Below are positions 11,670 through 33,626 of a stretch of DNA of 35,761 nucleotides, piece after piece (position 1 is the stretch's first letter; the number at the start of each line of letters is the position of its first letter). Under the pieces are notes generated by a model. The model worked only from the letters and a program-made list of their open reading frames with translations, made no database searches and had not been told where the DNA came from. The stretch comes from Elusimicrobiota bacterium (GTDB lineage Bacteria; Elusimicrobiota; Elusimicrobia; Elusimicrobiales; UBA9959): positions 1 to 35,761 of the forward strand of contig JAAYVG010000013.1 of the NCBI GenBank assembly GCA_012517285.1, read 5' to 3'. A program made the translations under genes and the position numbers.

Positions 11670-11835
11670 ATAGGTATTACTTTTTAATTTATACTGTATT
11701 AAAAATTAGCTTTTTTGATAAGCGTTAGAGTTTATGATTGTCTTAGGTTTAGAAGTATGATGTTTGAGGTTTAAATGGTGGTTTTATATGATTAAAAATG
11801 ATATGCTTCTCCGATATATGAAGAGGGGAGGAGTT

Positions 11836-12705
11836 ATGGTTAAATCAATATTTTCAAGGAAAATGGCTAATATATTTTTATTAACTACAATTTACGTTCT
11901 TATAGCTGTTAATATTGTAAACAGTGAAAACCTTCAGATATCAACCTATTATCCTGCGCCATATGGAGGATATGTTAGTATACTCACAACCAACAACACA
12001 TGGCTTGCAAGGGATGCTGGAAATGTTGGTATAGGAACAGCAAACCCTTCATCAAAACTAACACTTGCTGGAAAGATGGAGTTTTTTCATGCTGGTGGAA
12101 ATGATAATAACACTGATGTTTATTCAATTGAAAAGATATATGGTGGGTACAACGTAAGTTCTCTCAGGATGACAATCAATGATGATGCTGACGAATCATT
12201 TCAGATATGGGGAAACTCTTGTGCCACACCAGCTGGATGTGGTGGACCAGGCGAGCCACTTTTTAACTTTTCTGCCAGTGGATATATGACATGGGGAAAC
12301 AACTCAGTTATTGGTGGCGATCAGGGTGGAAGTTTGGAACTGGGTGGCAATAATGGGACTCCAGGAGATGGAGTACCCTATATAGATTTTCACTACTCAG
12401 GACTGACTCAGGATTACAACGTAAGATTGATAAATGATGTAAATGGAAGGTTATCTCTCTATGGCAACTTTTATGTGAGTGGTCAGATTGATTTTTGCAG
12501 GGCAATATACAATGGAAGCGGTGGTTGGAGCGGCACATGCAACTGGAATGAGAGAACTATGGGATTTGTTGCAACAGGCTGGAGCTTTCTACCAACATGC
12601 GGTGGCTGGTATATACCAGCTGATCTGATACCACGATGTTCATCTGTTAGTGGATATTATGTGCCAAATGCTGGGTATCTTATATGCTGCAGGACCATCT
12701 ACTAA
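11836..12705 (+). CDS. Secreted 'YYPAPYG' surface-type protein of unknown function
   Basis: A 289-residue exported protein. Basic N-region KSIFSRK, hydrophobic core LLTTIYVLIAVNIV and likely cleavage after VNS give a signal peptide. The mature part opens with ISTYYPAPYG and then NVGIGTANPSSKLTLAG, a pattern shared by tail-fibre/adhesin-like proteins of candidate phyla. The glycine- and asparagine-rich middle looks like a beta-rich fibre. The C-terminus is cysteine-containing (SGTCNWNER, PTCGGWYIP, LICCRTIY). The ATG at 11836 is chosen because GGGGAGGAG directly precedes it and a signal peptide follows. It is the first gene after the strong promoter and ends 15 bases before hxsD, so it may be a partner or cargo of the system. 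Confidence 0.6.
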   Translation: MVKSIFSRKMANIFLLTTIYVLIAVNIVNSENLQISTYYPAPYGGYVSILTTNNTWLARDAGNVGIGTANPSSKLTLAGKMEFFHAGGNDNNTDVYSIEKIYGGYNVSSLRMTINDDADESFQIWGNSCATPAGCGGPGEPLFNFSASGYMTWGNNSVIGGDQGGSLELGGNNGTPGDGVPYIDFHYSGLTQDYNVRLINDVNGRLSLYGNFYVSGQIDFCRAIYNGSGGWSGTCNWNERTMGFVATGWSFLPTCGGWYIPADLIPRCSSVSGYYVPNAGYLICCRTIY

Positions 12706-12720
12706 AAATGGAGGATATGG

Positions 12721-13155
12721 ATGATAGATTTTATTTTTGATATCAAAGATTACAGCCTTGATGTCATAAAAGAGACATCGTATTTGTTTTCTGATAGCTT
12801 CTGGGTATTTGTAGAAAAGAACAATAATAAAATAAAAGTAACTTTTGAACCATTCAATAAAAAGGTAAAGATCAAAGATCTTCAGAAACTTTTTACAAAA
12901 AAATTGAAGGAAGAAAAAATAAAGGATGAAATCTTTAATGAGAACATCAAGCTCAGAGAGTATCTCATAAAACAGGCTATGACATACAACCCAGAAGAAA
13001 ATAACAATGATGGGCTTACAGCGGAAGAGGAAAAAGAATTAGAAAAGCTTATAAAAGAGGTTGAGGATGAGCTAAAAAAGGAATCAGGAGGAAGCAATGA
13101 CAGTGAGATCAAAAAAACTTGGGAAGAAAAATACGGCGGTAAAACCTCAAAATAA
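12721..13155 (+). CDS. hxsD: HxsD-like protein 1 with Glu-rich tail
   Basis: This 144-residue protein resembles HxsD of His-Xaa-Ser systems, a small protein always found with the radical SAM maturases and thought to act as their partner. The start DYSLDVIKETSYLFSDSFWV, the beta segment KIKVTFEP and the end of the core NIKLREYLIKQAM follow the HxsD pattern. After residue 85 there is a non-family tail rich in Glu and Lys (LTAEEEKELEKLIKEVEDEL), probably helical. GGAGG six bases before the ATG sets the start. It overlaps the following hxsB gene by 59 bases, a strong sign of coupled expression. Confidence 0.72.
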   Translation: MIDFIFDIKDYSLDVIKETSYLFSDSFWVFVEKNNNKIKVTFEPFNKKVKIKDLQKLFTKKLKEEKIKDEIFNENIKLREYLIKQAMTYNPEENNNDGLTAEEEKELEKLIKEVEDELKKESGGSNDSEIKKTWEEKYGGKTSK

Positions 13156-14599
13156 ATATAATACTCCTCAGATTAGGTGGAGAAGGATAGGGGCAAAATA
13201 TATAGTTACTAATGATTTTGGTAGGTATGTTGTAATCGGAGAAAAGGATTTTAATAATCTTTTAGCCAATAAGATTAAATCAGATGATAAGCTTTATCCG
13301 CTGCTTGCTTCAAACGGATTTATAAAAAACAATATGGATTTTGGTGATTTATGGTCAAGCTGGCAAAAGCTTAACTCTTATGTATTTCAGGGTCCATCGC
13401 TTCACATACTTGTTCTCACACTTAGATGCAATTATAAATGTGTTTATTGCCAGAGTGGTTCTATGAATGAAGATGCAAAGAATATGGATATGAGCTGGGA
13501 AACCGCTAAAAAATCTATTGATACAGCATTTGAATCAAATGTTAATAACATCTCAGTAGAATTTCAGGGGGGAGAGCCATTGATGAACTGGGATGTGATG
13601 AAAAAATCAGTGAAATACATAAAAGAGTGTGAAAAGAAATCTGGTAAGAAAGCAAACATTGCTCTGGTATCCAACTTTTCTTTGATGGATCAAGAAAAGG
13701 CGAAGTTTTTAATGGAAAATGAGGTTTCACTCTGTACATCTCTTGATGGCTTTGAGAAACTTAACAATAAACTTAGGGTATATCCAAATGGTAATTCTTA
13801 CAAAAAAGCTGCCAGCTGGATAAAATATCTTACGGATAAATACAATTCCCAGCACGGCAACATGTTTAAGATATTCAAACCATCGGCTTTAACAACAATA
13901 ACAAAAGAAACCCTTCCTTTTTATAAAGAAATAGTGGATGAATATCTTAACCTTAATCTTGAAACTATTTTTTTAAGGCCGCTTTCTCCAATAGGCTTTG
14001 CCAGAAAATCATGGAATAAGATAGGATATAACTCAGATGAGTTTTTAAAATTCTATGAGAAAGCCTTTGATTATATAATCTCATTGAATAAAAAGGGAAT
14101 AATGATAAAGGAAAAGATGGCTGAGATGCTACTAAAAAAAATAATAAAGAACGAAGACCCTGGGTATGTTGATTTAAGATGTCCGTGCGGTGCGGGTATA
14201 GGACAATTAGCATATAACTATAATGGTGATATATATACTTGTGATGAGGGGAGGATGATAGGCTGGGAAGGAGAAGAGCTATTTAAAATAGGAAATATTA
14301 ATGATATGACATATGAGGATATAATAAACTCTGACACAGTTAAGCTGTGCAGTCTGTCATCAAATTTAGAGAGTCAAGTTATGTGCCATAAATGTGTTTA
14401 CAGGCCATACTGTGGTATATGCCCCGCAATAAACTTTGAAGAAGAAAGATCTACGGTTGGTAATAATATTATATCAGAAAGATGTAAAATTTTTATGGGT
14501 ATTTTTGATATAATATTTAAGAGAATAGGTAAAAAAGATTGTTATGATGTATTTAATAAATGGCTTAATTATGAAGAAAAGACAAAAGGGGATAAGTGA
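13097..14599 (+). CDS. hxsB: Radical SAM/SPASM maturase HxsB-type (copy 1)
   Basis: A 500-residue radical SAM protein of the HxsB type, expected to modify the His-Xaa-Ser repeat peptide. Order: an N-terminal domain of about 105 residues (RRIGAKYIVTNDFGRYVVI), LRCNYKCVYC with Cys111, Cys115 and Cys118 for the SAM-binding [4Fe-4S] cluster, QGGEPLMNWD, then a C-terminal SPASM region with CPCGAGIGQLAYNYNGDIYTCDEGRM and CHKCVYRPYCGICP for auxiliary clusters. CAGGAGG lies before the ATG inside the upstream hxsD-like gene. The adjacent HxsD-like proteins and the repeat peptide support the assignment. Similar full-length copy at 26300. Confidence 0.82.
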   Translation: MTVRSKKLGKKNTAVKPQNKYNTPQIRWRRIGAKYIVTNDFGRYVVIGEKDFNNLLANKIKSDDKLYPLLASNGFIKNNMDFGDLWSSWQKLNSYVFQGPSLHILVLTLRCNYKCVYCQSGSMNEDAKNMDMSWETAKKSIDTAFESNVNNISVEFQGGEPLMNWDVMKKSVKYIKECEKKSGKKANIALVSNFSLMDQEKAKFLMENEVSLCTSLDGFEKLNNKLRVYPNGNSYKKAASWIKYLTDKYNSQHGNMFKIFKPSALTTITKETLPFYKEIVDEYLNLNLETIFLRPLSPIGFARKSWNKIGYNSDEFLKFYEKAFDYIISLNKKGIMIKEKMAEMLLKKIIKNEDPGYVDLRCPCGAGIGQLAYNYNGDIYTCDEGRMIGWEGEELFKIGNINDMTYEDIINSDTVKLCSLSSNLESQVMCHKCVYRPYCGICPAINFEEERSTVGNNIISERCKIFMGIFDIIFKRIGKKDCYDVFNKWLNYEEKTKGDK

Positions 14600-14919
14600 T
14601 GAATAAAGCAATAGACAAGGATATTTATGCTCCTGAAGCTCTTGAGATAGCGAAGAGTATAATTGACAGAGATAATAAAATAAATATAATAAGAAAAGGA
14701 AACAAAATATTTATTTCAACTGATGATGATATATTGTTTAAGAGGTTTATGAACGAGGCTCTTCATCAGGATCTGAGGCTTAGTTTAACAAGGAAAAATT
14801 TTAATATAATAAGACTTATAACAACAAAGGCTATAGCTTCAGCAATCGGAAAGGAGAATAAAGAAAAAAAGCCAACCAAAGTTATCAGAAGAAATAATAA
14901 AAGGAGGGATAAAAGATGA
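14599..14919 (+). CDS. hxsD: HxsD-like protein 2 with basic tail
   Basis: A 106-residue protein whose fold order parallels HxsD-like protein 1: DIYAPEALEIAKSIIDRD, a short beta stretch (NKIFISTDDD), a helix (FKRFMNEALHQDLRLSLTRKNF) and IIRLITTKAIASAIG. The final 22 residues are strongly basic (KKPTKVIRRNNKRRDKR), the opposite charge balance to the other copy. The ATG at 14599 overlaps the hxsB stop by one base; the in-frame GTG at 14596 lies too near AGGGG to be preferred. Assignment to HxsD rests on length, context and pattern rather than strong identity. Confidence 0.55.
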   Translation: MNKAIDKDIYAPEALEIAKSIIDRDNKINIIRKGNKIFISTDDDILFKRFMNEALHQDLRLSLTRKNFNIIRLITTKAIASAIGKENKEKKPTKVIRRNNKRRDKR

Positions 14920-15971
14920 AAAAGTATATTATTCTTGTTTTGGTCATATTGATTATAGTTTCAGGAGTCTATTATCTCAGAAGCTCAAAGAAGCCATCAT
15001 TACCAATCAAACAGAGTGAAACATATATCAATAATGAAAGTCTTACACCAAATCAGTTAGAGCGATCTACCATTTCTTTCCAATCTCAGAATAGAAATAC
15101 AAATATAAATTATTCAGAAATAGCAAAGAAACAGATGGAAGAAATGATGAAAGCTTCATCCACTTTATCAGACATATCAACAAGCTATAATAATTCTTCA
15201 TTGCCTCCTCAGTATGCTCAGATGATAAATTGCAATAAAAATGTGGATGATATAATAAGTGATTATGGAAAGATATGGGGTAATATTACGATAGGAAATA
15301 TCAAGGATAAAAAAACAAAAACTTATACTTTTGCTAAAGAAGAACAGGACAATATTAATCAACTATTATTGAATTATCAGAGCTGTATATCATTTGTAAG
15401 AAATGATTCATCAGTATGTAAGAAAATCCCATCATCAAAAGAGTGCAAAAAAATATTTGACAATCAGATAAGCTATTATCTTTTATTAGATTATATAAAC
15501 GGTAAAAATAATAATATAGACAATTGTATTAATAATATTTCTAATTCTCCAGAAGCAGCACAGTTAATGGGATCACTTACTCTAGAGAAAGCATGCCAGA
15601 TGATACATGGAGTTAAGGTAAAAAATGTGTGCGATAAAATAAATTCTGTAAACAACCTTGGTAATAATATAAAGTTTTGCTATAAATTATTTTCAAAAGG
15701 TGATTCTTGCCAAGAAAATAATGAACAGTGTAACATATCAATTGCTTTTGCTAAATCCAATCCTGATTTATGTCCGAATAATAGTTGTAAAGCGTTTATA
15801 TCAAAAGATGAAAAGACATGTGACAATATGAAAGCTCAACTATTAATTACATATTGTGACTATTATAACAGTTTAATGAACAGAAAAAAAGTTGATGAAG
15901 AAAAGACCAATATGAACGAGAAAATGAAAAAGAAAAACTCTAATGAGGAGAATGATGCGGAGGATAAATGA
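14916..15971 (+). CDS. Membrane-anchored Cys-rich protein of unknown function
   Basis: A 351-residue protein with one N-terminal transmembrane segment (YIILVLVILIIVSGVYYL) followed directly by RSSKK. The rest should therefore lie outside the cytoplasm if it is inserted with the N-terminus in. There is a Ser/Thr/Asn-rich linker to about residue 100 and then a helical region with many spaced cysteines (for example SCISFVRNDSSVC, CQENNEQC, LCPNNSC, YCDYYNSL), suggesting disulfide-braced repeats. The C-terminus is lysine- and glutamate-rich. AAGGAGGGA precedes the ATG. It lies between HxsD-like protein 2 and the repeat peptide, four-base overlap on each side. I do not recognise the family. Confidence 0.7.
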   Translation: MKKYIILVLVILIIVSGVYYLRSSKKPSLPIKQSETYINNESLTPNQLERSTISFQSQNRNTNINYSEIAKKQMEEMMKASSTLSDISTSYNNSSLPPQYAQMINCNKNVDDIISDYGKIWGNITIGNIKDKKTKTYTFAKEEQDNINQLLLNYQSCISFVRNDSSVCKKIPSSKECKKIFDNQISYYLLLDYINGKNNNIDNCINNISNSPEAAQLMGSLTLEKACQMIHGVKVKNVCDKINSVNNLGNNIKFCYKLFSKGDSCQENNEQCNISIAFAKSNPDLCPNNSCKAFISKDEKTCDNMKAQLLITYCDYYNSLMNRKKVDEEKTNMNEKMKKKNSNEENDAEDK

Positions 15972-16285
15972 ATGTTAAAAAGAATAAAGCCAGAAAACAA
16001 CTAAAAACATTTATAACAAGCGAAGAAGGAAAGATTCTTGACAGCGATATTGTAAAGACTGCTATTGCGTTGGGTATAATAGGAGCTGTGAGCAGCAGCA
16101 TCCCTGATAATTTATCAGCTCAAATTCATTCAAACTTTATGACCTCAAATGCACACTACAACCATATCTCACATGGCTCACATGCTTCCCATGGTTCACA
16201 TGGCTCTCATGGCTCTCATGGCTCTCACGGCTCTCACGGCTCTCATGGCTCTCATGGCTCTCACTCAAGGGGTGGGTGGTGCTAA
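15968..16285 (+). CDS. hxsA: HxsA-like His-Gly-Ser repeat precursor peptide
   Basis: A 105-residue candidate substrate of the system. The N-terminal part (1-50) looks like a leader: basic start NVKKNKARKQLKTF, then TSEEGKILDSDIVKTAIAL and a mildly hydrophobic GIIGAVSSS. Asn/His-rich spacer AQIHSNFMTSNAHYNHI follows. Residues 68-99 hold eleven Ser-His units, nearly all followed by Gly, i.e. the His-Xaa-Ser repeat with Xaa = Gly. The protein ends SRGGWC. Such repeat proteins are modified by radical SAM enzymes in known Hxs systems, but the product is uncharacterised as far as I know. GCGGAGG lies upstream; ATGA overlap with the previous gene. No other such peptide is encoded in the array. Confidence 0.8.
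   Translation: MNVKKNKARKQLKTFITSEEGKILDSDIVKTAIALGIIGAVSSSIPDNLSAQIHSNFMTSNAHYNHISHGSHASHGSHGSHGSHGSHGSHGSHGSHGSHSRGGWC
16169..16264 (+). repeat. Nine-base tandem repeat encoding Ser-His-Gly
   Basis: About eleven copies of a nine-base unit close to TCTCATGGC encode Ser-His-Gly. Codon third positions vary (TCA/TCC/TCT, CAT/CAC, GGC/GGT), more at the left end than the right. This suggests an older left part and recent copy-number change on the right. The reading frame is kept throughout. Confidence 0.95.
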
Positions 16286-16294
16286 CAACAACTG

Positions 16295-17371
16295 ATGATT
16301 GATGAGATACAAAAGATAAAGATTGCTTTAACATCAAGATGCACGTTGAAATGTGATCATTGCAATATAGATAAGGTTTCAGCATCCTCTATATCTATAG
16401 ATTATGCATTAAAGACTGTTGATTTTATCCTTTCATCCAAAGGGAAGGACAAAAGGATTGAGATATACGGTGGAGAACCATTTACTGAGTTTGAAAAGCT
16501 AAAGATTTTGGTAAAATACATAAGACAAGAATCACAGATAAGAAACAAAACCACATCCATACACGTAGCTTCAAACGGGACAATAGTAAATGATGAAATA
16601 TTAGACTGGCTTAAAAAAAATGATATTTTTTTGGCAATAAGTTTTTCAGGCAGCAGGAAGAGTCATAATTATAACAGAAAATTTCCAAATGCTAAAGGAA
16701 GCTATCAAATGGTTAAAGAAAATATAAAAAAAATATTAAACACAATCGGTAATAAAAGGCTTGTCTGTATATACTGCATACATCCTGAATTTTCATCAAG
16801 AATACTTGATGACTTTAAAAAGATTATTAATCTGGGGATAAGGATAGTGGATATAGAGTGTGTCTCAGGATGCATGTGGGGTGAAAATGATTACACAAAT
16901 CTAATAAGTGGAATTAAAGAAATAAATAAATATATATTAAAATTAGCAGGACAAAAAAAATACATATTTCATGAGGTTTTTACCGAATATTTAAGAACAA
17001 AAAATTTATGTTTTCCAAATTGTCCCGGATATATGGATATAGAACTATATCCGGATGGAAACCTCGGTTTTTATCCTTACGCATTTATAAACTATAACAG
17101 ATATAAAAATAAAATATCTATAGGAACAGCAAGAAAAGGAATAAACAAAAAATATTCAAAATGCAAATATAAATCTAAAAGATGTGATGATTGTGTTAAA
17201 AATTATTATACACTACAAGGCTTAGACGATGGGTCAAAGGCATATGAAATAAGAAATAAAATAATAATAAATTTTTTTAAAGAATTGGTCTCCATCTCTT
17301 CTAAAAACTGTTTGGCTAATAACTATTTTAAGCAGACAATAAAACTATCAAATTTTTTTTATGACAAATAA
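16295..17371 (+). CDS. Radical SAM protein with SPASM-like C-terminus, next to precursor
   Basis: This 358-residue radical SAM enzyme has SRCTLKCDHC (Cys16, Cys20, Cys23), YGGEPF for SAM binding, and a C-terminal region CFPNCPGYMDIELYPDGNLGF... then CKYKSKRCDDC, which looks like a SPASM/twitch auxiliary-cluster domain. It begins nine bases after the repeat peptide gene, the position where an HxsC maturase would be expected, but I do not see the details I associate with HxsC, so I leave the symbol blank. There is no clear ribosome site. It overlaps the next radical SAM gene by 11 bases. Confidence 0.75.
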   Translation: MIDEIQKIKIALTSRCTLKCDHCNIDKVSASSISIDYALKTVDFILSSKGKDKRIEIYGGEPFTEFEKLKILVKYIRQESQIRNKTTSIHVASNGTIVNDEILDWLKKNDIFLAISFSGSRKSHNYNRKFPNAKGSYQMVKENIKKILNTIGNKRLVCIYCIHPEFSSRILDDFKKIINLGIRIVDIECVSGCMWGENDYTNLISGIKEINKYILKLAGQKKYIFHEVFTEYLRTKNLCFPNCPGYMDIELYPDGNLGFYPYAFINYNRYKNKISIGTARKGINKKYSKCKYKSKRCDDCVKNYYTLQGLDDGSKAYEIRNKIIINFFKELVSISSKNCLANNYFKQTIKLSNFFYDK

Positions 17372-18443
17372 TATTACAAAGACACAGTTGGATAATCTAA
17401 AATTTATAAAAAAGAATAACCCAAATATTTCTGAAGCTGATATATTAAAAAGGATAAAAAATATTGAATGGTCATTAAAACTTTTTCCACAGGTTTGTGA
17501 AGTTACAATAAACTATAATTGCAATAATAAATGTATATTCTGTTATTATGATGAAAAAACTTTAAATAAAAGCCCTCAGCCTTCACTCAAAAGCATATAT
17601 AAGACTCTGTATCTGGCAAGAAAAAATGGAGCAAACCTTGCCAATATTGTAGGAGGTGAGCCAACGCTGAGAAAGGATCTAGGCAAAATAGCAAATTTTG
17701 CCAGAAAAATAGGCTATCCCTGCGTTAAGATATCAACAAATGGAAGGCTCTTATCAGATAAAAACCTTGTCAGATCACTTGTAGAAGATGGAATAAATAT
17801 GTTTAATATATCCATACACTCATCAAATCCTGAGATTCATAATAAAATGGTCGGGATAAAAACTGCTTTCAGTGATGTTATGAAGGCCTGTGAAAATATT
17901 ATAACAGCAGGTGCAGAGTTAGGATGTGATCACGTAATAAACAAATTGAATTATAAATTATTCCCTAAATTTATTGACTTAACTTATAATAAGTTAGGAA
18001 TAAACTACTATAATGTAATATACATTCATTACGAGGGAATGGGATACGCAAATTTCAAGGAATTAAGTGTTTTATTAGATAAAACTGTAAAATATATAGA
18101 AGAGGGAGTAAATATTATAAAGAAAAGTAATTTTCCAGCTTTTTCAAGAATTCTGGTTAACTTTCCACCATGTTTTTTTCCATCATATATCAGTATATTA
18201 GCAGATTGGGAAAGAGAACCCCGCAAAAAAGAATTTTTACTAATTGATGATAAAACTGTTGATTTAAGTCATGTGAAAGATAAAGAAATTGGATATACAA
18301 AAAATTGTACTAAATGTCTCCTTTATAAAAAATGTAAGGGCTTTGATAAAAGTTATATTGAAAATATTAGCGACAATTTTAAACCTTTGAAGAAAATATA
18401 TCCTCAAAGATTGAAAACAATATTTGATTATGAAAAAAATTGA
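17361..18443 (+). CDS. Radical SAM protein, CX2CX5CXG family (member 1)
   Basis: A 360-residue radical SAM protein. After about 45 residues with no recognised domain comes NYNCNNKCIFCYY (Cys54, Cys58, Cys61), then VGGEPTLRKDL. The auxiliary-cluster region has FPPCFFPS followed by CTKCLLYKKCKGF and ends in FKPL-like sequence. Five further genes in the array share this C-terminal plan, and together they look like a family amplified within the locus. It may act like HxsC. No reaction can be assigned. The stop overlaps the HemW-like gene start by 14 bases. Confidence 0.78.
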   Translation: MTNNITKTQLDNLKFIKKNNPNISEADILKRIKNIEWSLKLFPQVCEVTINYNCNNKCIFCYYDEKTLNKSPQPSLKSIYKTLYLARKNGANLANIVGGEPTLRKDLGKIANFARKIGYPCVKISTNGRLLSDKNLVRSLVEDGINMFNISIHSSNPEIHNKMVGIKTAFSDVMKACENIITAGAELGCDHVINKLNYKLFPKFIDLTYNKLGINYYNVIYIHYEGMGYANFKELSVLLDKTVKYIEEGVNIIKKSNFPAFSRILVNFPPCFFPSYISILADWEREPRKKEFLLIDDKTVDLSHVKDKEIGYTKNCTKCLLYKKCKGFDKSYIENISDNFKPLKKIYPQRLKTIFDYEKN

Positions 18444-19755
18444 TTACAAAAATGTTATATCAAGAATTGATTCATTTAAGTTCATGTGCTATCCACCCCA
18501 TTATCCAATAATAGATATATGGGGAAACAATAATAACAATGAAAAAATTAAAGAAAAGATTAAAAATTATTTTGAAAAAAAGCAGGAAAGAGAATTAGGA
18601 ATATATATTAATGTCCCTTTCTGTAAAAGAAAGTGCAGCTTCTGTTTCCTTGATATAATGATATACAATCAGGAAGCAGAAAAGAGATTCTTATATGGAA
18701 TAAAGAATGAGATTAAGCTATTGAATGAATTAAAAATAAAGAATCATATCTCCAATAGTTTATACTTAGGCGGAGGGACAATAAGTATATTAACTAATAA
18801 TGGATTAAGAGAACTGTTTGAAACAATAAGAAACGGAATTAATTTTTCAAAAAATTTTCAATTTTCATTAGAGACATCCCCTGAGTTTATAACAGAGAAG
18901 AATGCTGAAATATTTTCTAGATACGGTGTTAACCTTGTTATGATGGGAATACAGAGTTTTAATGATGATAAAAATAAAAAATTTAATAGATTTCAAAAAA
19001 AAGAAAATATAGAAAAGGCAATCAGAATATTAAAAAACAAAAATATTTATGTAAATCTTGATATAATAACAGGACTTACTGGAACTGATGAAAAGGAATT
19101 TATAAAGGAGGTTATTTCTGCTGTGAATTTAACCCCTGACATGATACATCTCAATAAATTTAAACCAATATATGATGAAACAAAAAAAATGGAAATAGAA
19201 AAATTACAAAAAAAAGGATTGACGATATTAGCAAAGTCGGGATATAAAATACTTGATGAGGAATCAGGGGTTATTTCTCCGTTTGTAGGAAACACTCAGG
19301 GCGATATAAATTTTCAAACTGATGCAAGCATAATATCTATGGGACCCAATTCTATTGCCCATTTATACTCATCAATCAGATACAAGAATTATACTAACTT
19401 CAACAATTATCTTTTAAGGACTAAGAATAACACTTTACCGATAGAATCGTTTATAGAAGTAGATGAATATGATGAAGCAGTAAATTATTGTTTAAATAAT
19501 ATTCATAATAATGGTGTTGATCTGAATAAAATAAAAAAATTATTTACATCTAAAACATATAATAAAATTTTAAAAAAACTAAAAAAACTTTATGATAACA
19601 ATTTTATCAAAAAACAAGATAATATATATAAAACAGATGGTGATTGGTTTGAAGTAACAAAGGGCTTATATAAAAATATTTATTTATCAAAGGAAGCTAA
19701 AAAAAATAATTTTTATGAAAAACATAACAACAATAGATGCAATAAAAAAGTATAA
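18430..19755 (+). CDS. HemW/HemN-like radical SAM protein
   Basis: A 441-residue protein of the coproporphyrinogen III oxidase-like/HemW group. PFCKRKCSFC (Cys65, Cys69, Cys72), YLGGGT for SAM binding and VMMGIQSFND are typical, and a winged-helix-like C-terminus (about 370-441) matches HemW/HemN-type proteins. The family includes class C radical SAM methyltransferases acting on peptides. Since it sits among peptide maturases, a methylase or related role is more likely than haem synthesis. I do not see HemW's HNxxYW haem motif. The ATG at 18430 is used rather than the TTG at 18424, because it overlaps the previous stop in the usual coupled way. It overlaps the next gene by 41 bases. Confidence 0.75.
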   Translation: MKKIDYKNVISRIDSFKFMCYPPHYPIIDIWGNNNNNEKIKEKIKNYFEKKQERELGIYINVPFCKRKCSFCFLDIMIYNQEAEKRFLYGIKNEIKLLNELKIKNHISNSLYLGGGTISILTNNGLRELFETIRNGINFSKNFQFSLETSPEFITEKNAEIFSRYGVNLVMMGIQSFNDDKNKKFNRFQKKENIEKAIRILKNKNIYVNLDIITGLTGTDEKEFIKEVISAVNLTPDMIHLNKFKPIYDETKKMEIEKLQKKGLTILAKSGYKILDEESGVISPFVGNTQGDINFQTDASIISMGPNSIAHLYSSIRYKNYTNFNNYLLRTKNNTLPIESFIEVDEYDEAVNYCLNNIHNNGVDLNKIKKLFTSKTYNKILKKLKKLYDNNFIKKQDNIYKTDGDWFEVTKGLYKNIYLSKEAKKNNFYEKHNNNRCNKKV

Positions 19756-20737
19756 CTGGCCATATTATAAAACAAAAGTTTGTGAGCTAACCTTAACATA
19801 CAGATGTAATGCAAAATGTCTTTTCTGTTATACTCCCGAAGAAAACACGTCATTACATACAAAAAATGAAATAGATATCAAAATGGCTGGCAGATATATT
19901 CTTGATTCATATAAAAGTGGATCGAGAATCATTCAGATAATAGGTGGTGAACCGACAGTCTATCCTGAACTGGCTGAGATAATAAAAATTGCGAGCAGAA
20001 TAGGGTATCCTGTTATACAGATAGTTACTAATGGCCAGATGCTAAAAGATTTTAATTATATCAGAATGCTTAAAGATGCTGGTTTAAACACAATTACATT
20101 TTCAATACATTCTGATAACAATAAGATTCATGACAAAATTGTTGGTATAAATGGGGCATTTAACAACATAATGATGGCTATATATAACGCAATAAAATTA
20201 GATATATATATTACAGTTGGAACTGCAATAAATGCTTTGAATTATAAAAGGATACCACATATCGCTAAATTTATTTATGAAAACTTTGGCATAGAAACAT
20301 TTCATTTCATTGCATTACATTTTATAGGTAAAGCAGGTAAAAAATCTAAGGAGTTAAAAGTTAGTTATGATGAAACTCTCCCATATTTAAAAGAGGCATT
20401 GAATTATTTATCAACTAAAAAAATTCTTCCCATATCACCAATACTGAGCAATTATCAACCTTGTATATTACCCGGCTTTGAACATCTTATAACTGACTGG
20501 AAAATTCCATTCAATGATGATGATCTTTATTTACCCGAGACTATATATAAAGAGAAGATGTACACTATGATAACAAATACATTAAGAATGAAGGGGAATA
20601 ATTGTAAAAAATGCTTATACTATAAAATTTGTGCTGGCTTTGAAAAAAAGTATTTTGAGACTTATGGTGATGAGGAATTTAAACCATTGAAAAGCATATC
20701 AAAACCATTTAAGATAGGAGTTTTTTATGAAAGATGA
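19715..20737 (+). CDS. Radical SAM protein, CX2CX5CXG family (member 2)
   Basis: A 340-residue radical SAM enzyme with YRCNAKCLFCYT (Cys31, Cys35, Cys38), IGGEPTVYPEL, and a C-terminal auxiliary-cluster region NYQPCILPG plus CKKCLYYKICAGF, ending EFKPLKSI. It is closest in plan to the gene at 17361, and the two flank the HemW-like gene. Both share the 'Y/FxPC' cysteine ahead of the CX2CX5CXG group, so four ligands for one extra [4Fe-4S] cluster are available. Its start lies inside the upstream gene, implying translational coupling. Confidence 0.78.
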   Translation: MKNITTIDAIKKYNWPYYKTKVCELTLTYRCNAKCLFCYTPEENTSLHTKNEIDIKMAGRYILDSYKSGSRIIQIIGGEPTVYPELAEIIKIASRIGYPVIQIVTNGQMLKDFNYIRMLKDAGLNTITFSIHSDNNKIHDKIVGINGAFNNIMMAIYNAIKLDIYITVGTAINALNYKRIPHIAKFIYENFGIETFHFIALHFIGKAGKKSKELKVSYDETLPYLKEALNYLSTKKILPISPILSNYQPCILPGFEHLITDWKIPFNDDDLYLPETIYKEKMYTMITNTLRMKGNNCKKCLYYKICAGFEKKYFETYGDEEFKPLKSISKPFKIGVFYER

Positions 20738-21464
20738 ATTAGCGTTTGTATTATACAGTGGTGGTAAGGATTCTCATATTGCACTTTATAATGCTATAAA
20801 GGATGGATATGATGTAGTATTATTTCATGCAAATTCATCTGATATGAGTGCAGATATCTTCAGTTCTCCCTATGTTTCTGATATAGTAAAAAAACAGGCA
20901 AGTTTAATGGGAATACAATTATACGAATTAAAAATAAAAGGAATGATAGAAGAAGAAAATATTTTTTTAAAAATTATAAAATTACTTAAGTCTAAACATA
21001 AAAAAAATATTATATATTATGATTCATTCCAGTACTCAGCATCGATATCAGAAACAGACATAAAAAATATCAGAAAAATATCAGAGATCTTTAAGGCTAA
21101 TGGGATACGAACCATCCCTTTCAGTAAAATCATAAAAGGGAATACGGTATATGATTCATTTAAAAGCTATTTAAAATCTGGAATCAAAGCAATAATAACA
21201 GGGGTTGAAAATGGCATATCCAGTGATTTTCTTGGCAAAGAGCTTGATGATGTATTTATAAAACATTTAAAAGAGCTGATTAAAAAAAATAATGGTATTG
21301 GAGGATATAATTATCAAACACTTGTAACATCATCTCCACTATTCAACGGATACAGTTTTAAGATAACACAATCCAAAATATTTTACAATCCGAAAAACAA
21401 GTCTGATATGTTAAAAATAATTAAATGGAAATGTTATAAAAATAATGAAAGACAGACTGAGTAA
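20727..21464 (+). CDS. Dph6-like PP-loop ATP pyrophosphatase
   Basis: A 245-residue protein of the PP-loop family, resembling the MJ0570/Dph6 (diphthine-ammonia ligase) group, which adenylates a carboxylate and joins it to ammonia. YSGGKDSHIAL (residues 10-20) is the PP-loop, with the FHAN step of the nucleotide-binding fold nearby. A C-terminal GGYNYQTLVTSSPLF segment matches the 'GE(F/Y)xTxVxDxPxF' signature of Dph6, with the acidic residue replaced. Bacteria do not make diphthamide, so here it may amidate or otherwise condense on a peptide carboxylate. AGGAG precedes the ATG. It overlaps both neighbours, placing it firmly in the array. Confidence 0.72.
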   Translation: MKDELAFVLYSGGKDSHIALYNAIKDGYDVVLFHANSSDMSADIFSSPYVSDIVKKQASLMGIQLYELKIKGMIEEENIFLKIIKLLKSKHKKNIIYYDSFQYSASISETDIKNIRKISEIFKANGIRTIPFSKIIKGNTVYDSFKSYLKSGIKAIITGVENGISSDFLGKELDDVFIKHLKELIKKNNGIGGYNYQTLVTSSPLFNGYSFKITQSKIFYNPKNKSDMLKIIKWKCYKNNERQTE

Positions 21465-22668
21465 TAAAAAAGAAATACTATCGAGATATATAATAAATGA
21501 TATATATCCTGAAGAACATATAATATCTTTAGGTAGAAAATGTAATTCTAATTGCATATACTGTATAAACAATGCTGGAAAAGATTCCACAGAGATGTTG
21601 GATCTAAAAACCGGTAAAAAAATAATTGACTTTATATTTACTATTCCAAAAGATTATTATTATATTGAATTTACTGGCGGTGAACCATTTGAAAACTTTG
21701 ATGTTTTGTTTAAACTTACTGATTATGCAAAAAATAAGGCCTTTTTACTAAATAAAGATATTCATTTTTCAGTTGTATCAAATCTGATTGATTTAAAACC
21801 AGAATATATTAAGTTTATAATAAGAAATAATATAACAATATGCACATCATTGGATGGACCAAAGCACCTACATAATAAAACAAGGAAAAGCCCATACTAC
21901 AAAGATACATATTCAAATACACTTAAAAATCTAAAAAAAATTATTTACTACTCAAAAAAAGGAGTTATAGAAACACCAAATATAATAACCACTGTCACAA
22001 AATACTCCCTTGCTTATCCAAAAGAAATAGTAGATGAATATATAAAACTAAATATTTCAAGAATTCAATTAGGATTTTTAGAACCATTGGGAAGGGCAGA
22101 GAATCTCTGGAAGAGTATAGGTTATACATACAAAGATTATCTTGACTTTTATTTTAAGGCTATAAACTATATCATATATTTAAATATTAAAAAGGAAATT
22201 CCCGTATATGAAAAAGGATTGCTGTTATTACTAAGATCTGTTTTAACACAAAACAACTCGAGACACAGGGCTATTGATATAGCCAACAGGCTTGCTTATG
22301 ACTGTAAAGGAAACATCTATCCATCCGATGAGACAAGGATAATAGGTGAAGAAAAAGATTTTACTTTTAAGATTTTAAATGTAGAAAATAATAATTTTAA
22401 TAGTTTTATACATAATAAAAAAACTATATTATTTTTGATATCAAACTTCCAGGAATTGATAAATCCACTCTGTTCAAAGTGCCCTTATTCTTTTTATTGT
22501 AAAATAACGACACATTATTCTTATATATGCTCAGGAAGAATATTTGGAAATATGATAGACAGTGAAAGATGTCAACTATTTAATAAAATATTTGAATTTA
22601 TATTTAAAAAATTAGAGGATAAAGAGATAAGGAAACTGTTTAATATTTGGATAGAACTCTATCCATAA
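21445..22668 (+). CDS. HxsB-like radical SAM protein with degenerate SPASM domain
   Basis: A 407-residue relative of the HxsB genes. The radical SAM core is intact, with GRKCNSNCIYC (Cys33, Cys37, Cys40) and TGGEPFENFD, and it shares TSLDGP...HNKTR and 'DEYIKLN' patterns with HxsB. It lacks the N-terminal domain of about 80 residues seen in the other copies. In the SPASM region the CGAG and TCDEGR cysteines are missing (the latter reads YPSDETRI), although a CX2CX5C-type group remains near the end. It therefore may bind fewer auxiliary clusters and act on a different step or partner. No frameshift is needed to explain this. It overlaps the PP-loop gene by 20 bases. Confidence 0.72.
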   Translation: MKDRLSNKKEILSRYIINDIYPEEHIISLGRKCNSNCIYCINNAGKDSTEMLDLKTGKKIIDFIFTIPKDYYYIEFTGGEPFENFDVLFKLTDYAKNKAFLLNKDIHFSVVSNLIDLKPEYIKFIIRNNITICTSLDGPKHLHNKTRKSPYYKDTYSNTLKNLKKIIYYSKKGVIETPNIITTVTKYSLAYPKEIVDEYIKLNISRIQLGFLEPLGRAENLWKSIGYTYKDYLDFYFKAINYIIYLNIKKEIPVYEKGLLLLLRSVLTQNNSRHRAIDIANRLAYDCKGNIYPSDETRIIGEEKDFTFKILNVENNNFNSFIHNKKTILFLISNFQELINPLCSKCPYSFYCKITTHYSYICSGRIFGNMIDSERCQLFNKIFEFIFKKLEDKEIRKLFNIWIELYP

Positions 22669-24194: not shown

Positions 24195-25390
24195 AGACTA
24201 AAAACTTAAGATATTCTTACAACTTAAACATTTCTTTACTGGTCAATCCGCCTGAAAAAGAGTTTATATTTAGCTATGATATCAATTCTCAAAAAAAGAT
24301 ATACATTCAAGATGATGGATACTCATATTTTTCTGACCTAAACGATAAACAGGAATATGGCTTTTTTCTAAATCAGTCATACCTGATGATAAAGAATAAC
24401 CCAGAAATAAAAGATAGTAGGGATATATTAAAAATTAGTATAAAAACATCAGAAGAAGAAATCGTTATTAAAAGAATAGAAAAATTAAAGAGCTCAAATA
24501 TAAATTATGATCTGTGGATAGAATTTGAGAACAATGAATACTACGATTTTGACAGTAAAGAAAATGATAAAAAATTTATAGAAGCACTATTTGCTAATTT
24601 AGGAATTAAAAGTATGCTTGATATAAAAATAAAAGATAATAAAATGTTTCTTAAATATTCATCGTTAAAAAAATTTAAATATGAACTTTTTCAAAAAATA
24701 ATTAATCCAAATTTTATTGCAAATTTTTATCTTACATATATGAGATTTATACTAAAAGAGTTAAAAAACATTAAAGATAAAAACAATGATCGTGAATATA
24801 TAAGGCAGCTGAATTTTAACTTAGCCATTTACAATTTCATATATACAAGAATAGCTAACTATAAGACAGAAACTATCTTAAAAGAGTTCAATATTGAAAG
24901 ACAAAATATTTTTCGTATTATAGACAATAATAAGAAACTAAAAGATTTTTTTTTAAACAATGATAAAATTACATTAAGAATAAATGAATATTTAAAACTT
25001 TTGACAGAAAAAATCGTTTTAAAGAATAAATCCAATAAGTTTATTAGAAAGGTTATAAGAAATAAAATTGATGTAAATTTTTCTATAAGAGGTGAGTTTT
25101 TATTAAACAAGGATATTGAAGGAGTTGTAAAAGTGATTGATAATCCTGATGACCTAAAAAACATAAACAAAGATGAGATACTGGTTATGAGCTATCCTGA
25201 TATAGATAGCCCTTATATAGTAAAAAAAATAAATGGCATAATAAGCGAAAGTGGTGGGTTTACAAATGAGGCAGCTATGAGCTGTATAAAATTTAAAAAG
25301 CTATTCGTTAGCGGGGTAACAGGTTGTAAAAATGTCTTTAGCAATGGAGAGAAAATAAAAACAATTAATGGATTGATATATAAAATATGA
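24191..25390 (+). CDS. Protein with C-terminal PEP-utiliser-type swivelling domain, catalytic His missing
   Basis: A 399-residue protein. I do not recognise the first roughly 310 residues, which are very Lys/Asn-rich and probably helical. The last 85 residues match the phosphohistidine swivelling domain of PEP synthase-like enzymes: GIISESGGFTNEAAMS, FVSGVTGC, then FSNGEKIKTINGLIY. The canonical GGxxSHAA reads GGFTNEAAM, so the phosphoryl-carrying His is Glu360. The domain cannot work as a His phosphocarrier. It may be a fold reused for binding. ATGA overlaps join it to both neighbours. Confidence 0.6.
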   Translation: MKTKNLRYSYNLNISLLVNPPEKEFIFSYDINSQKKIYIQDDGYSYFSDLNDKQEYGFFLNQSYLMIKNNPEIKDSRDILKISIKTSEEEIVIKRIEKLKSSNINYDLWIEFENNEYYDFDSKENDKKFIEALFANLGIKSMLDIKIKDNKMFLKYSSLKKFKYELFQKIINPNFIANFYLTYMRFILKELKNIKDKNNDREYIRQLNFNLAIYNFIYTRIANYKTETILKEFNIERQNIFRIIDNNKKLKDFFLNNDKITLRINEYLKLLTEKIVLKNKSNKFIRKVIRNKIDVNFSIRGEFLLNKDIEGVVKVIDNPDDLKNINKDEILVMSYPDIDSPYIVKKINGIISESGGFTNEAAMSCIKFKKLFVSGVTGCKNVFSNGEKIKTINGLIYKI

Positions 25391-26313
25391 AAAGGAAACT
25401 TGATATAAAGATTACTTTTAAATGTAATAATCACTGTTCATTCTGTGCTCAAGGAAATAAAAGAACTATTATAAAGCCTGTAAGCAAGGAAGAAATAATA
25501 AAAAATCTTAGTGAGGCTAAAAGTAAATATAAAACAGATGAGGTGGTTTTTACAGGCGGGGAACCTACACTTCATAAGGATATAATAGAACTGATAAAGA
25601 AAGCAAAAAAATTGGGATATAAAACAATACAGCTCCAAACGAATGGCAGAACTATTTCTTCAACTGATTTTATTAAAAAAATAAGCGATGCTGGAATAAC
25701 AGAGATAGGCCCTGCACTGCATGGCTCAAAGCCAGAGATACATGATAAACTTACCAATTCTAAGGGAAGTTTTGCTCAAACCGTTAAAGGTATAATTAAT
25801 GCAAAAAAATTAGGACTTTATGTTTTAACCAACACTGTTATAACATCTCTAAATTATAAGGATTTGGAAAATATTGCAAGGCTATTAATATATTTGAAGG
25901 TTGATCAGTTTCAATTAGCATTTGTCCACATAATAGGCACTGCATGGGAAAATAGAAAATGGATAGTCCCTAAAAAATCAGATGCTATGCCATATATAAA
26001 AAAGGCACTTGATCTTGGAATAAATAGTGGAACCCCATGCTACACAGAGGCTATACCATATTGCTTGATGAAAGGATATGAAGACTGCGTAGCTGAGAGG
26101 ATCATTCCTGATGGACCAGTTGTTGATGCTGAAGTGTTTGTGAAAAACTATGGGAAATATAGAAGGGATGAGGGAAAGATTAAAAGAAAAGAATGTGAAA
26201 GATGTATATATTTTAAGATATGCGAGGGACCATGGCGAGAGTATCCTAAGATATATGGTTGGGAAGAGTTTAAACCAGTAATAAAACAGAGTGGGGAAAA
26301 TGGAAGTCATTAA
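25387..26313 (+). CDS. Radical SAM protein, CX2CX5CXG family (member 3)
   Basis: A 308-residue compact radical SAM enzyme with almost no N-terminal extension: KCNNHCSFCAQG puts the cluster at Cys13, Cys17 and Cys20. TGGEPTLHKDI follows. The C-terminus contains IPYCLMKGYEDC and CERCIYFKICEGPW, ending in EEFKPVIK. It is the most compact member of the family and shares the CAQG/CSQG style after the third cysteine with the gene at 31711. The ATGA overlap with the swivelling-domain gene suggests coupled expression. Confidence 0.78.
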   Translation: MKRKLDIKITFKCNNHCSFCAQGNKRTIIKPVSKEEIIKNLSEAKSKYKTDEVVFTGGEPTLHKDIIELIKKAKKLGYKTIQLQTNGRTISSTDFIKKISDAGITEIGPALHGSKPEIHDKLTNSKGSFAQTVKGIINAKKLGLYVLTNTVITSLNYKDLENIARLLIYLKVDQFQLAFVHIIGTAWENRKWIVPKKSDAMPYIKKALDLGINSGTPCYTEAIPYCLMKGYEDCVAERIIPDGPVVDAEVFVKNYGKYRRDEGKIKRKECERCIYFKICEGPWREYPKIYGWEEFKPVIKQSGENGSH

Positions 26314-27706
26314 TTTCTATATTGAAAAAATTATAAAGAAAAAATATTTTATATCAAATGATAGTGGGAAAAATCTTGTAATTGATGAACTTGAACTAAA
26401 AAAAATCATAAATAAAAAAATAGATACTGATGGAAAACTATACAAAAAATTATTAAATAATAACTTTATAATAGTAGATAAGGATATAAAAAATTTTATA
26501 CTGGATTTTAAGAAATTATCAAAATATAGATTTTCTACAACATCACTTCATATAATAGTTTTGACTTTAAAATGCAATCATTTTTGTAGATATTGTAGAG
26601 CAACAGGATTTAACCAAGACGGAACAATGACATTAGCAACAGCAAAAAAGGCAATAGACTTTATATTTGATACACCTAACCATAGTATAACAATAGAATT
26701 TCAGGGTGGTGAAGCTCTTTTAAACTGGGACGTTTTAAAGAATTCAATTGATTACATAAAAGAAAAAAATAAGAAATACAAAAAGGATTTACAGGTTGCT
26801 GTGGTCACAAATTTAAGTATTATGGACGATGAAAAGCTCAAATTTATGATTAAAAATAACATATCAATATGCACTTCACTTGATGGGCCTGAGTTTATTC
26901 ACAATAAAAACAGAGTTTATTATAATGGCTCATCATATAAAAAGGTCGTTTATTGGTTAAAAAAGATAAAATTTATTACAGAAAAAATAAATAACAATAG
27001 GAAAGATTCTCTTCCATCAGCACTCATGACAACCACGAAACTATCACTAAAATACCCAGAAAAGATAATTGATGAATACAGAAATTTAGGACTTGGTGGA
27101 ATTTTTTTAAGGCCGTTATCCCCTATAGGATATGCTAAAGGTGTATGGAATGATATAGGATATAATGCAAATGATTTTTTAAATTTTTATGAAAAGGCAA
27201 TTGATTATATACTTAAAATAAACAAGAAAGAACTGTTTGTTGAAAGAAATGCTGCCATAAAGCTTAAAAAAATACTTTTTCAAGAGGATCCTAATTATTT
27301 AGATTTAAGAAGCCCGTGTGGGGCGTCAACAGGACAGTTAGCATATAATTATAATGGTGATATATATACCTGTGATGAGGGAAGGATGATTGCGACATCC
27401 GATGATTTTTCATTTAAGGTTGGAAATGTTTATAGTTCAAGATACTTTGATGTTATAACCTCAAAGCCAACAAAAAGCTGTATCATCTCATCATGTCTTG
27501 ATAATAATATAAACTGTTATAAATGTGCTTTTAAGCCATACTGCGGTATATGTCCAGTCTTTAATTATGAGGTTTCGGGCAAAACCTACTCATCAATTAA
27601 AACAAATTACTGGTGTGATATTGAAAAAGGGATATTTAAAATACTTATTAATAAGCTTATGAAAAATGAAAATTATAATATATTTTTAAGGTGGTTTGAT
27701 GCCTGA
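26300..27706 (+). CDS. hxsB: Radical SAM/SPASM maturase HxsB-type (copy 2)
   Basis: A 468-residue HxsB-type maturase, intact. N-terminal domain (YFISNDSGKNLVIDELEL), then LKCNHFCRYC (Cys92, Cys96, Cys99), QGGEALLNWD, TSLDGPEFIHN and the SPASM set SPCGASTGQLAYNYNGDIYT, CDEGRM and CYKCAFKPYCGICP. It resembles the gene at 13097 along its length, and IFLRPLSPIGYAKGVWNDIG is nearly the same in both. The ATG at 26300 sits three bases after GGGG; an in-frame GTG at 26291 would add three residues. Two intact HxsB-type enzymes beside one substrate gene is unusual. Confidence 0.8.
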   Translation: MEVINFYIEKIIKKKYFISNDSGKNLVIDELELKKIINKKIDTDGKLYKKLLNNNFIIVDKDIKNFILDFKKLSKYRFSTTSLHIIVLTLKCNHFCRYCRATGFNQDGTMTLATAKKAIDFIFDTPNHSITIEFQGGEALLNWDVLKNSIDYIKEKNKKYKKDLQVAVVTNLSIMDDEKLKFMIKNNISICTSLDGPEFIHNKNRVYYNGSSYKKVVYWLKKIKFITEKINNNRKDSLPSALMTTTKLSLKYPEKIIDEYRNLGLGGIFLRPLSPIGYAKGVWNDIGYNANDFLNFYEKAIDYILKINKKELFVERNAAIKLKKILFQEDPNYLDLRSPCGASTGQLAYNYNGDIYTCDEGRMIATSDDFSFKVGNVYSSRYFDVITSKPTKSCIISSCLDNNINCYKCAFKPYCGICPVFNYEVSGKTYSSIKTNYWCDIEKGIFKILINKLMKNENYNIFLRWFDA

Positions 27707-28589
27707 TATATGTTTATGGAACAAATGTAACAATAGGTGTATAATGTGTACTAATTCTGAGGAGTTTAGCAACTCAAATTCAGTTGGTAGTTATGACCTG
27801 AAAACTCAGATAAAAAAATTTGAGATGTTTCTTAATGGTAAGAAAGTTTTTAAAGGTGGTAGTGGTTATAACAGCTATATAAACATCACAGGGGGAGAGC
27901 CAACCATACATCCATGTTTTTTTGAGTTGATTGGTTATATAAGAAAACGTGCTCCTGATATGCCTATAACACTACTTACAAATGCAAGAATGTTTTCCAA
28001 AATAGCTTTTACCCAAAAATTTATAAAACTTGCGAAATTACCTTTCACTGTGGCAATAAATTTTCCATCTTATAAAAAATCAACCTTTGAAAAAATAACA
28101 AATATAAAAGGAAGCTATAAAGAAACATTAAAAGGAATTGACAATCTATTTAAAATATTTAATGGTAGAATAGAGTTTAGAATAGTTATTCATAAATTAA
28201 ACATATATGAACTAAAAAAAACAGTTGAATTTTTATTGAAAAGATATAAAAATTATTATAATTTTTATATCGTTATAATACATTATGAGATTGAAGGGAT
28301 GAGTGATATAAACAATAAACTGATTGAACTAAAGATTAAAGATTCTGCTAAATATATTAATAAGAATTTAAAGTATTTAATAAAAAAATCTAATGTAGAA
28401 ATAAGGTTGTATCATTATCCACTATGTTTATTAAACAAAGATTTAAGAAAACACGCATGGATAACTCTGCCATCATATGATAGAATATATACAAAAAAAT
28501 GTGAAAGATGTAGTTTAAGAGATAAATGTCTTGGATTAATGAAAAGCTACTATAAGAGATATAATGATTATGAGATCAAACCACTATAA
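27699..28589 (+). CDS. Radical SAM protein, CX2CX5CXG family (member 4)
   Basis: A 296-residue radical SAM enzyme with a nine-residue N-terminus before WNKCNNRCIMCTN (Cys10, Cys14, Cys17). TGGEPTIHPC and a C-terminal YPLCLLN plus CERCSLRDKCLGL, ending YEIKPL, complete the family plan. The ATG at 27699 has AAGGTGG upstream and overlaps the HxsB copy 2 stop by eight bases; the TTG at 27696 is not needed. The CxMC variant between the second and third cysteines differs from the CxFC seen in the other members. Confidence 0.77.
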   Translation: MPDICLWNKCNNRCIMCTNSEEFSNSNSVGSYDLKTQIKKFEMFLNGKKVFKGGSGYNSYINITGGEPTIHPCFFELIGYIRKRAPDMPITLLTNARMFSKIAFTQKFIKLAKLPFTVAINFPSYKKSTFEKITNIKGSYKETLKGIDNLFKIFNGRIEFRIVIHKLNIYELKKTVEFLLKRYKNYYNFYIVIIHYEIEGMSDINNKLIELKIKDSAKYINKNLKYLIKKSNVEIRLYHYPLCLLNKDLRKHAWITLPSYDRIYTKKCERCSLRDKCLGLMKSYYKRYNDYEIKPL

Positions 28590-29763
28590 TTTAACCATCA
28601 TATTATCATACATAACCACAATTATATATTTAATATGGTCAATATCTATTGTTAAAGAGGATATGGAAACAGGAAAGATAAAAAACATTAAAATAATGCA
28701 AGGAATAAAAATTATAGGGATTATTATTTTTGTTCATATTATTAACACTGTATCCGGAAATTTAGGGTACTCAAAAAGTTATATGAATTTGTCGTTTTAT
28801 AAATTTTATTTTATTAACATTTTATACTCTTTGATATCATCATACATACTGTGGTATGGTGAGATATGGCCGGCAGGAGATGCAAAATTTTTTATTATAA
28901 GTTTATTGTTTATACCATTATGTAAATACGATATATACGGATTTCCATCATATCTTTGGTTGATATCAATGATAAACATATTTATAATAGCTGCAGTTTA
29001 TTCAATATATAACTATTTGAAAGATAATTTTTCTAATATAAAAAACGAACAGATTGCTTTCAAGGAAATAAAAGACTTTCATACAGATAGGATTAAAAAT
29101 AAAAATATATTAAATATTAATAATATGTTTAAAATTTTTTCAATATTCTCTATATTTCTTGGAAAACAGTTTTTAAATATGATAATGTTCAGATATATAT
29201 TTAACATATTTCACCGAACTGATATTTTCTTTTTTATACTTTTTTTTCTCTGGCCAAAGATTTCAAAATTTTTAAACACAAAGATATGGAGATACACGCT
29301 TGCTACAATCTATATCATTATAATAATATACAGTCTGTATATGACAGATATATCATCTTATTTTATTAAAAAAATATTTTTAACATCCATTTCAAACACA
29401 GTTATGTTCGGTGGAATATTTTTTATAGCTAAAGTAATATTTGAATATATACTTGAGAAACATAATACCTATTATGCTGGAACAGATGAGATAAAAGAGG
29501 GGATGATTTTATCATCAAAGGAACTTGAAATAGCTAAAAAAAATGAATTATTCAAGGGAATGTTTGATGATGCCTTTAAGGATGGTTTAACAAAAGAACA
29601 GGCTGAGGTTTTAAAAGAGTGGCTAAAAAACCATCCTGATAAAAATGCAAAATTAGAGTTTGTTAAAGCTAAACCATTTGCATTATCAATATTTATAGGT
29701 ATTATTTTCTGCCTTGTTTTCAGTAAAAATATAATGCTTTATTTAAAGAATCTTATAAAATGA
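28564..29763 (+). CDS. Type IV prepilin peptidase-like (A24) membrane protease
   Basis: A 399-residue polytopic membrane protein with the two aspartates of the A24 prepilin peptidase family: D33 in the D-x5-I-x-N context (DMETGKIKN), and D106 in GDAKFF (GxGDxK-like). It lacks the N-terminal zinc/methyltransferase domain, as in archaeal and Tad-type enzymes, and is longer than those at the C-terminus. Residues about 310-370 form a charged, probably cytoplasmic stretch before a last transmembrane segment (PFALSIFIGIIFCLVFS). Prepilin peptidases cut a leader from class III signal peptides. Here it could process or modify a component of the array. No pilin genes are near. Confidence 0.7.
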   Translation: MIMRSNHYNLTIILSYITTIIYLIWSISIVKEDMETGKIKNIKIMQGIKIIGIIIFVHIINTVSGNLGYSKSYMNLSFYKFYFINILYSLISSYILWYGEIWPAGDAKFFIISLLFIPLCKYDIYGFPSYLWLISMINIFIIAAVYSIYNYLKDNFSNIKNEQIAFKEIKDFHTDRIKNKNILNINNMFKIFSIFSIFLGKQFLNMIMFRYIFNIFHRTDIFFFILFFLWPKISKFLNTKIWRYTLATIYIIIIIYSLYMTDISSYFIKKIFLTSISNTVMFGGIFFIAKVIFEYILEKHNTYYAGTDEIKEGMILSSKELEIAKKNELFKGMFDDAFKDGLTKEQAEVLKEWLKNHPDKNAKLEFVKAKPFALSIFIGIIFCLVFSKNIMLYLKNLIK

Positions 29764-33617: not shown

Positions 33618-33626
33618 TAAAAAATT

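Follow-up and report, generated by a model that had tools for sequence, protein, structure and literature searches.

What is made from the short, repetitive open reading frame at positions 15,968–16,285 of an Elusimicrobiota contig (JAAYVG010000013.1), and why does it end in a single tryptophan followed by a single cysteine? The frame was studied within the window, that is, the whole 35,761-nucleotide stretch of DNA that we analysed. A sequence-only reading had described a leader, eleven Ser-His units, one of them an Ala variant, and an SRGGWC end, and had guessed at a precursor of the Hxs type. Each of these elements is present in the 105-aa product, with the sole Trp and sole Cys at residues 104 and 105, the extreme C-terminus.

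The precursor and its Hxs neighbourhood

The ATG of the frame shares four bases with the stop codon of the preceding gene (ATGA). The leader is charged, with a basic start, the motif SEEGKxLDSDIVK (residues 18–30, SEEGKILDSDIVK) and then a weak hydrophobic stretch; a possible AxA-type processing site lies at its end, near Q52. In an 18-row alignment, F15, S18, E19 and E20 of the leader are invariant, as are the three spacer residues given in Table 1. The Ser-His dipeptides fall at residues 68, 71 and so on to 98, encoded by a 9-base tandem unit in which CAT and CAC codons are mixed with TCT, TCA and TCC. A minus-strand frame over the repeat (16,137–16,385, 82 aa) mirrors it and is not a separate gene.

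Table 1 Features of the precursor gene and of the surrounding gene block in the window
Feature	Coordinates	Strand	Evidence
Secreted "STYYP" protein, CC near end, heads conserved block	11764..12705	+	Homologous loci
HxsD-like protein	12721..13155	+	TIGR03976 44.9 bits, E 1.1e-11, cut-off 50
HxsB radical SAM/SPASM maturase	13097..14599	+	TIGR03978 474.5 bits, cut-off 370
Second, weak HxsD-like protein	14596..14919	+	TIGR03976 19.4 bits, E 0.001
Membrane-anchored Cys-rich helical protein, 351 aa	14916..15971	+	Homologue alignment, helical model
HxsA4 precursor, 105 aa	15968..16285	+	NF038313 73.5 bits, cut-off 55
Leader, residues 1–51	15968..16120	+	Alignment of homologues
Spacer QIHSNFMTSNAHYNHI with invariant H54, N56, H63	16121..16168	+	Alignment of homologues
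Core, eleven Ser-His units, (SHG)n plus one SHA	16169..16264	+	Sequence
C-terminal cap SRGGWC (class RGGWC)	16265..16282	+	38/38 GGWC genomes with 16295 enzyme family
Candidate cap-associated radical SAM enzyme, 358 aa	16295..17371	+	PapB/CcpM/SCIFF-maturase-like, all below cut-off
HxsC-like radical SAM	17361..18443	+	TIGR03977 98.8 bits, cut-off 267.9
HemN-like radical SAM	18424..19755	+	Profile match
HxsC-like radical SAM	19715..20737	+	TIGR03977 122.3 bits
Dph6-like ATP-dependent ammonia ligase-type protein	20727..21464	+	PF01902 57.6 bits, cut-off 23.2
HxsB paralogue without N-terminal part (profile 82–466)	21445..22668	+	290 bits, cut-off 370
HxsC-like radical SAM	25387..26313	+	Profile match
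Third HxsB	26291..27706	+	473 bits
HxsC-like radical SAM, general partner	27696..28589	+	TIGR03977 153 bits, E 7.6e-45, cut-off 267.9; 47/51 genomes, all end classes
Integral membrane protein, prepilin-peptidase-like aspartates	28564..29763	+	Motifs ED..TGKIKN, WPAGDAKF
HxsC4-like radical SAM	29760..30677	+	NF038332 146 bits, cut-off 500

The product matches the NCBIfam HxsA4 profile over residues 9–100 with a score above the curated cut-off, and an HxsA4 match was obtained in 53 of the 59 same-family genomes (above the cut-off in 47). This distribution, with the conserved leader and end, rules out a chance low-complexity frame. Judged from its sequence, the product is an HxsA4-type His-Xaa-Ser precursor, belonging to a family already described. 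The adjacent HxsB gene (13,097) also lies above its cut-off. The window's best HxsC score, that of the homologous gene at 27,696, falls below the curated threshold and the HxsD-like protein at 12,721 misses its own narrowly; the cluster is therefore filed as HxsA4/HxsB-type and not as the canonical four-gene set. Twelve radical SAM genes were counted in the window as family hits plus, where unscanned, genes with a visible CxxxCxxC motif. The guess at an Hxs-type precursor thus held: the precursor has HxsB-type radical SAM genes next to it in almost every homologous locus, and homologues without the leader or such neighbours, which would have pointed to a plain low-complexity surface protein, are not the pattern found. 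Given the family match and the HxsB, HxsC-like and HxsD-like neighbours, we interpret the gene as encoding a precursor. A scan of the genome contigs for HxsB alone found nothing, a viral-contig scan gave one irrelevant match, and no paper assigning a product to Hxs systems was found among the open-access papers searched.

The protein heading the block (11,764) carries an N-terminal TTYYPAPYGG-type motif, is encoded once in the genome and comes first in nearly every RGGWC operon. For the HxsD-like protein, the predicted structure is beta-alpha-beta-beta plus helices; a fold search returned no PDB match at E ≤ 0.001, so that any assignment to a known leader-binding domain would be putative. The weaker HxsD-like gene (14,596) keeps its position in most homologous loci. 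Between HxsD and HxsA4, in RGGWC loci and in several GSY loci, sits the Cys-rich gene (14,916), whose product has seven invariant cysteines (C157, C168, C177, C204, C227, C291 and C302) and likewise no PDB match at E ≤ 0.001. The membrane protein at 28,564 has no match in Pfam or NCBIfam; its prepilin-peptidase aspartates, D33 and D106, are invariant in 12 homologues. The Dph6-like and HemN-like genes are found near only some RGGWC loci; for this reason, the diphthamide-like or C-methylated histidine that they might suggest was set aside.

Further genes lie amid the radical SAM cluster. Two tandem pairs (22,690–24,194 and 32,865–34,292) each begin with a peptidase-U32/UbiU-like gene (UbiU score 58 bits, cut-off 440), and similar pairs are seen at several of the homologous loci; enzymes related to this family carry out oxygen-independent hydroxylation. 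The protein at 24,191–25,390 ends in a PEP-utiliser mobile domain (E 8e-5); by eye, Asn-Glu stands there in place of the usual catalytic Ser-His. Outside the family, the genomes G037–G060 of its sister family f2 (same order; 1.3–1.7 Mb) have no HxsB above the cut-off and almost no HxsA4 match; the Hxs system thus appears to be lost or absent there.

Chain ends and their partner enzymes

The sequence-only reading had proposed to check among homologues whether leader and GGWC end stay the same while repeat number changes. Leader and end are indeed conserved and the repeat number ranges from about 5 to 29, but GGWC is one among several alternative ends: the first homologue set (n = 44) comprises 20 RGGWC, 21 GSY and 3 GQW ends. 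Across all loci, 91 of 94 distinct tails have either an aromatic terminus (GSY, GQW, GSW) or a GGWC-type end; by class, 55 end in an aromatic residue, 29 in GGWC and 8 in GGWC extended by four or five residues, and there are 3 others, the tail GGWCCPRCF being counted in two classes. The C-terminus of HxsA4 is modular while the repeat number varies, which is new here, and the alternative ends GSY, GQW, GSW and CRGGWCNPRC seem to go with different partner enzymes.

Related peptides were also encountered farther afield. GQW/GSW-type tails occur, behind unrelated leaders, in loci of Deltaproteobacteria, Myxococcales and Binatia. Six loci of these types (L114, L118, L122, L123, L126 and L128) encode (SHG)n peptides with unrelated leaders, several terminating in GQW or GSW, and L114 and L118 have HxsB-like genes nearby. 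At L102 (9,920–10,342) is an HxsA relative in which His-Gly-Asn replaces the Ser-His-Gly repeats; its leader motif is unchanged, and it terminates in GSGGWC.

The GGWC end is tied to the radical SAM enzyme encoded immediately downstream of the precursor, at 16,295. Within family f1, 27 of the 59 genomes carry an orthologue of this enzyme; among the 52 with HxsA4, it is found in all 26 genomes with RGGWC and in none of the 26 without, whereas the control, the HxsC-like gene at 27,696, is present in 47 of 51 genomes irrespective of end class. In family f7, genomes whose precursor ends in CRGGWCNPRC or a close variant have a homologue of the enzyme about 1–2 kb from HxsA4, and those with other ends have none at comparable scores. 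Genomes with two precursors of differing ends (G001, G007, G070, G076 and G079) also have the enzyme.

The pairing extends to the whole phylum. Among 341 Elusimicrobiota genomes, a GGWC-ended HxsA is encoded in 38, every one of which also carries a member of the enzyme family. The enzyme profile, built from 12 members including two distant ones (for which it is not blind), was positive in 40 genomes. The DNA pattern His-x-Arg/Ser-Gly-Gly-Trp-Cys, which misses ends where neither Arg nor Ser precedes GGWC, matched 40 genomes, 38 of them shared with the enzyme; the other two matches (G305 and G307) are short non-HxsA frames and reflect chance. Only 2 of the 303 remaining genomes have the enzyme without a GGWC-ended HxsA, namely G023 and G326, which are 78% and 73% complete. 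Fisher's test gives p = 1.5e-45 for the phylum count, in which genomes share ancestry and the counts are not independent. For this reason, the case rests on four precursor backgrounds and on out-of-sample genomes: in each of six genomes detected via the enzyme alone (G324, G325, G327, G329, G337 and G340), the enzyme's locus also encodes a GGWC-ended HxsA4.

The four backgrounds are spanned by a 25-row clade with starred SH-aLRT support in the enzyme tree, a quick tree without a mixture model in which some branches are long and the deep order is unsure. They are RGGWC in f1, CRGGWCNPRC in f7, SHSRGGWC in G240, and His-Gly-Asn repeats with GSGGWC in a MAG. In G240, the SHSRGGWC precursor lies at a second locus (C17) and adjoins a GSW/GQW-type HxsB. 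A tree of the HxsB genes that lie upstream of HxsA4 shows at least four changes of end type and four of the enzyme. Collectively, the phylum-wide confinement of the GGWC end to genomes with this family points to a dedicated enzyme for the chain end.

The closest named models of the enzyme are PapB (120.9 bits), CcpM (105) and the SCIFF maturase (81), with cut-offs of 340, 500 and 425, and it is accordingly not filed as a PapB-type ranthipeptide maturase (NF047865). Besides CxxxCxxC at 16/20/23, the f1 orthologues conserve C161, C243, C290, C297 and C300; four of these five extra cysteines are placed like one auxiliary cluster, and there would be room for one.

A different gene accompanies the GSY end. 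A GT28-like gene (PF04101, 22.4 bits, cut-off 22) lies directly 3′ of at least 14 of about 29 GSY-ended genes (for example at L052, L053, L054 and L164). A genome-wide search located it in 19 of 51 genomes. Each of the 19 encodes a GSY precursor, and RGGWC-only genomes are not among them; two of these 19 matches are distant (29% identity).

Possible functions of the GGWC cap

We consider it reasonably probable that the gene at 15,968 encodes an HxsA4-type substrate in which the GGWC cap is a separate module, modified by the enzyme encoded downstream. The conserved leader would be read by shared Hxs machinery, comprising HxsB, HxsC-like and HxsD-like proteins, which would act on the Ser-His repeat; GGWC-ended precursors would additionally need the 16,295–17,371 enzyme, perhaps also extra HxsB paralogues. 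The enzyme, whose direct action on the cap we infer, would bond the Cys (thioether) or the Trp (cross-link), closing or anchoring the chain end; the Trp and Cys may serve for anchoring, cross-linking or cleavage. A Cys-centred bond is proposed because thioether formation is the annotated function of PapB, CcpM and the SCIFF maturase, the Trp bond being the alternative; most caps, however, hold one Cys, a point against this reading. The product would be exported and its leader removed at the membrane, as suggested by the hydrophobic segment of the leader, by the Cys-rich neighbour with its membrane anchor and by the prepilin-peptidase aspartates of the 28,564 protein.

Co-occurrence is no proof of such action. 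A rather unlikely alternative is that the GGWC end and the enzyme are co-inherited in a larger version of the operon, the enzyme acting on the repeats or another substrate and the cap serving, for example, in docking. The HxsB 21,445 and 26,291 clades are likewise confined to RGGWC genomes among the sampled loci, so that either could be the cap enzyme, and a related operon is kept in GSY genomes without the whole module. Independent switches are also few within f1, where a sign test on the HxsB tree found 2 well-supported switch pairs, too few to reach significance, and two distant members of the enzyme clade do not have the auxiliary-cluster cysteines. Against co-inheritance, the enzyme clade pairs with GGWC across other operon architectures, HxsB backgrounds and repeats.

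It is also unlikely that the terminal Cys is an anchor binding the exported chain to a lipid, glycan or partner protein, with the radical SAM enzyme merely preparing it. The Cys is terminal in the precursor, a membrane Cys-rich protein (14,916) and a secreted protein (11,764) whose sequence has CC close to the C-terminus are encoded nearby, and a glycosyltransferase-like gene often follows GSY genes; yet no gene in the block was recognised as sortase-like, lipoprotein or ligase, and a terminal side chain that could act as nucleophile is missing from GQW and GSW ends. An unmodified metal-binding chain, the radical SAM cluster serving other substrates, we regard as very improbable: it would account for eleven His in register and for the CDF-type transporter upstream (10,686–11,597), but that transporter is not seen beside other loci, and the family is a curated one with constant HxsB and HxsD partners. 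A plain low-complexity or collagen-like surface protein is scarcely credible, as the Pfam collagen match (PF01391, 19.1 bits, E 0.0011) is below the gathering cut-off of 27.2, the repeat has no Pro, the HxsA4 score exceeds its threshold, and leader and cap are conserved more than repeat number, with constant radical SAM partners.

Returning to the modification of the cap by its own enzyme, a tentative extension, which we hold to be possible but somewhat doubtful, is a "cap code": common machinery would treat the Ser-His repeat, and interchangeable ends (GGWC, GSY, GQW/GSW and CRGGWCNPRC) would recruit their own finishing enzymes, giving one backbone different terminal chemistry: Trp-Cys ends would be closed by a radical SAM enzyme, whereas Ser-Tyr ends would be the substrate of a glycosyltransferase. 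If so, one repeat-peptide pathway would gain different ends by swapping its last residues and one gene. The one-to-one tie of cap and enzyme in itself reduces the question of the Hxs product to six residues and a single enzyme.

Comparison with known systems

The HxsA4 family was known; what is new is the GGWC cap paired with a putatively dedicated radical SAM enzyme. As in the His-Xaa-Ser system (Haft and Basu; HxsA4, NF038313), the locus combines a leader and His-Xaa-Ser repeat with an adjacent HxsB above the cut-off and HxsC-like and HxsD-like genes. It differs from that system in having several HxsB and many HxsC-like genes, in HxsC and HxsD scores below the curated cut-offs, and in a C-terminal GGWC cap that would be served by a radical SAM enzyme of its own. 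PapB-type ranthipeptide, CcpM and SCIFF maturases provide the nearest named models for this enzyme, which in contrast scores far below their cut-offs, has one conserved set of auxiliary cysteines and would act on a one-Cys substrate. HxsB and HxsC are named solely as putative maturases in PMC9062424. The TvgA/TvgB repeat RiPP described there shares with the present locus a repeating core handled by a radical SAM enzyme, but has a TVGG repeat, a cyclopropylglycine product and an enzyme of another family (PMC9062424).
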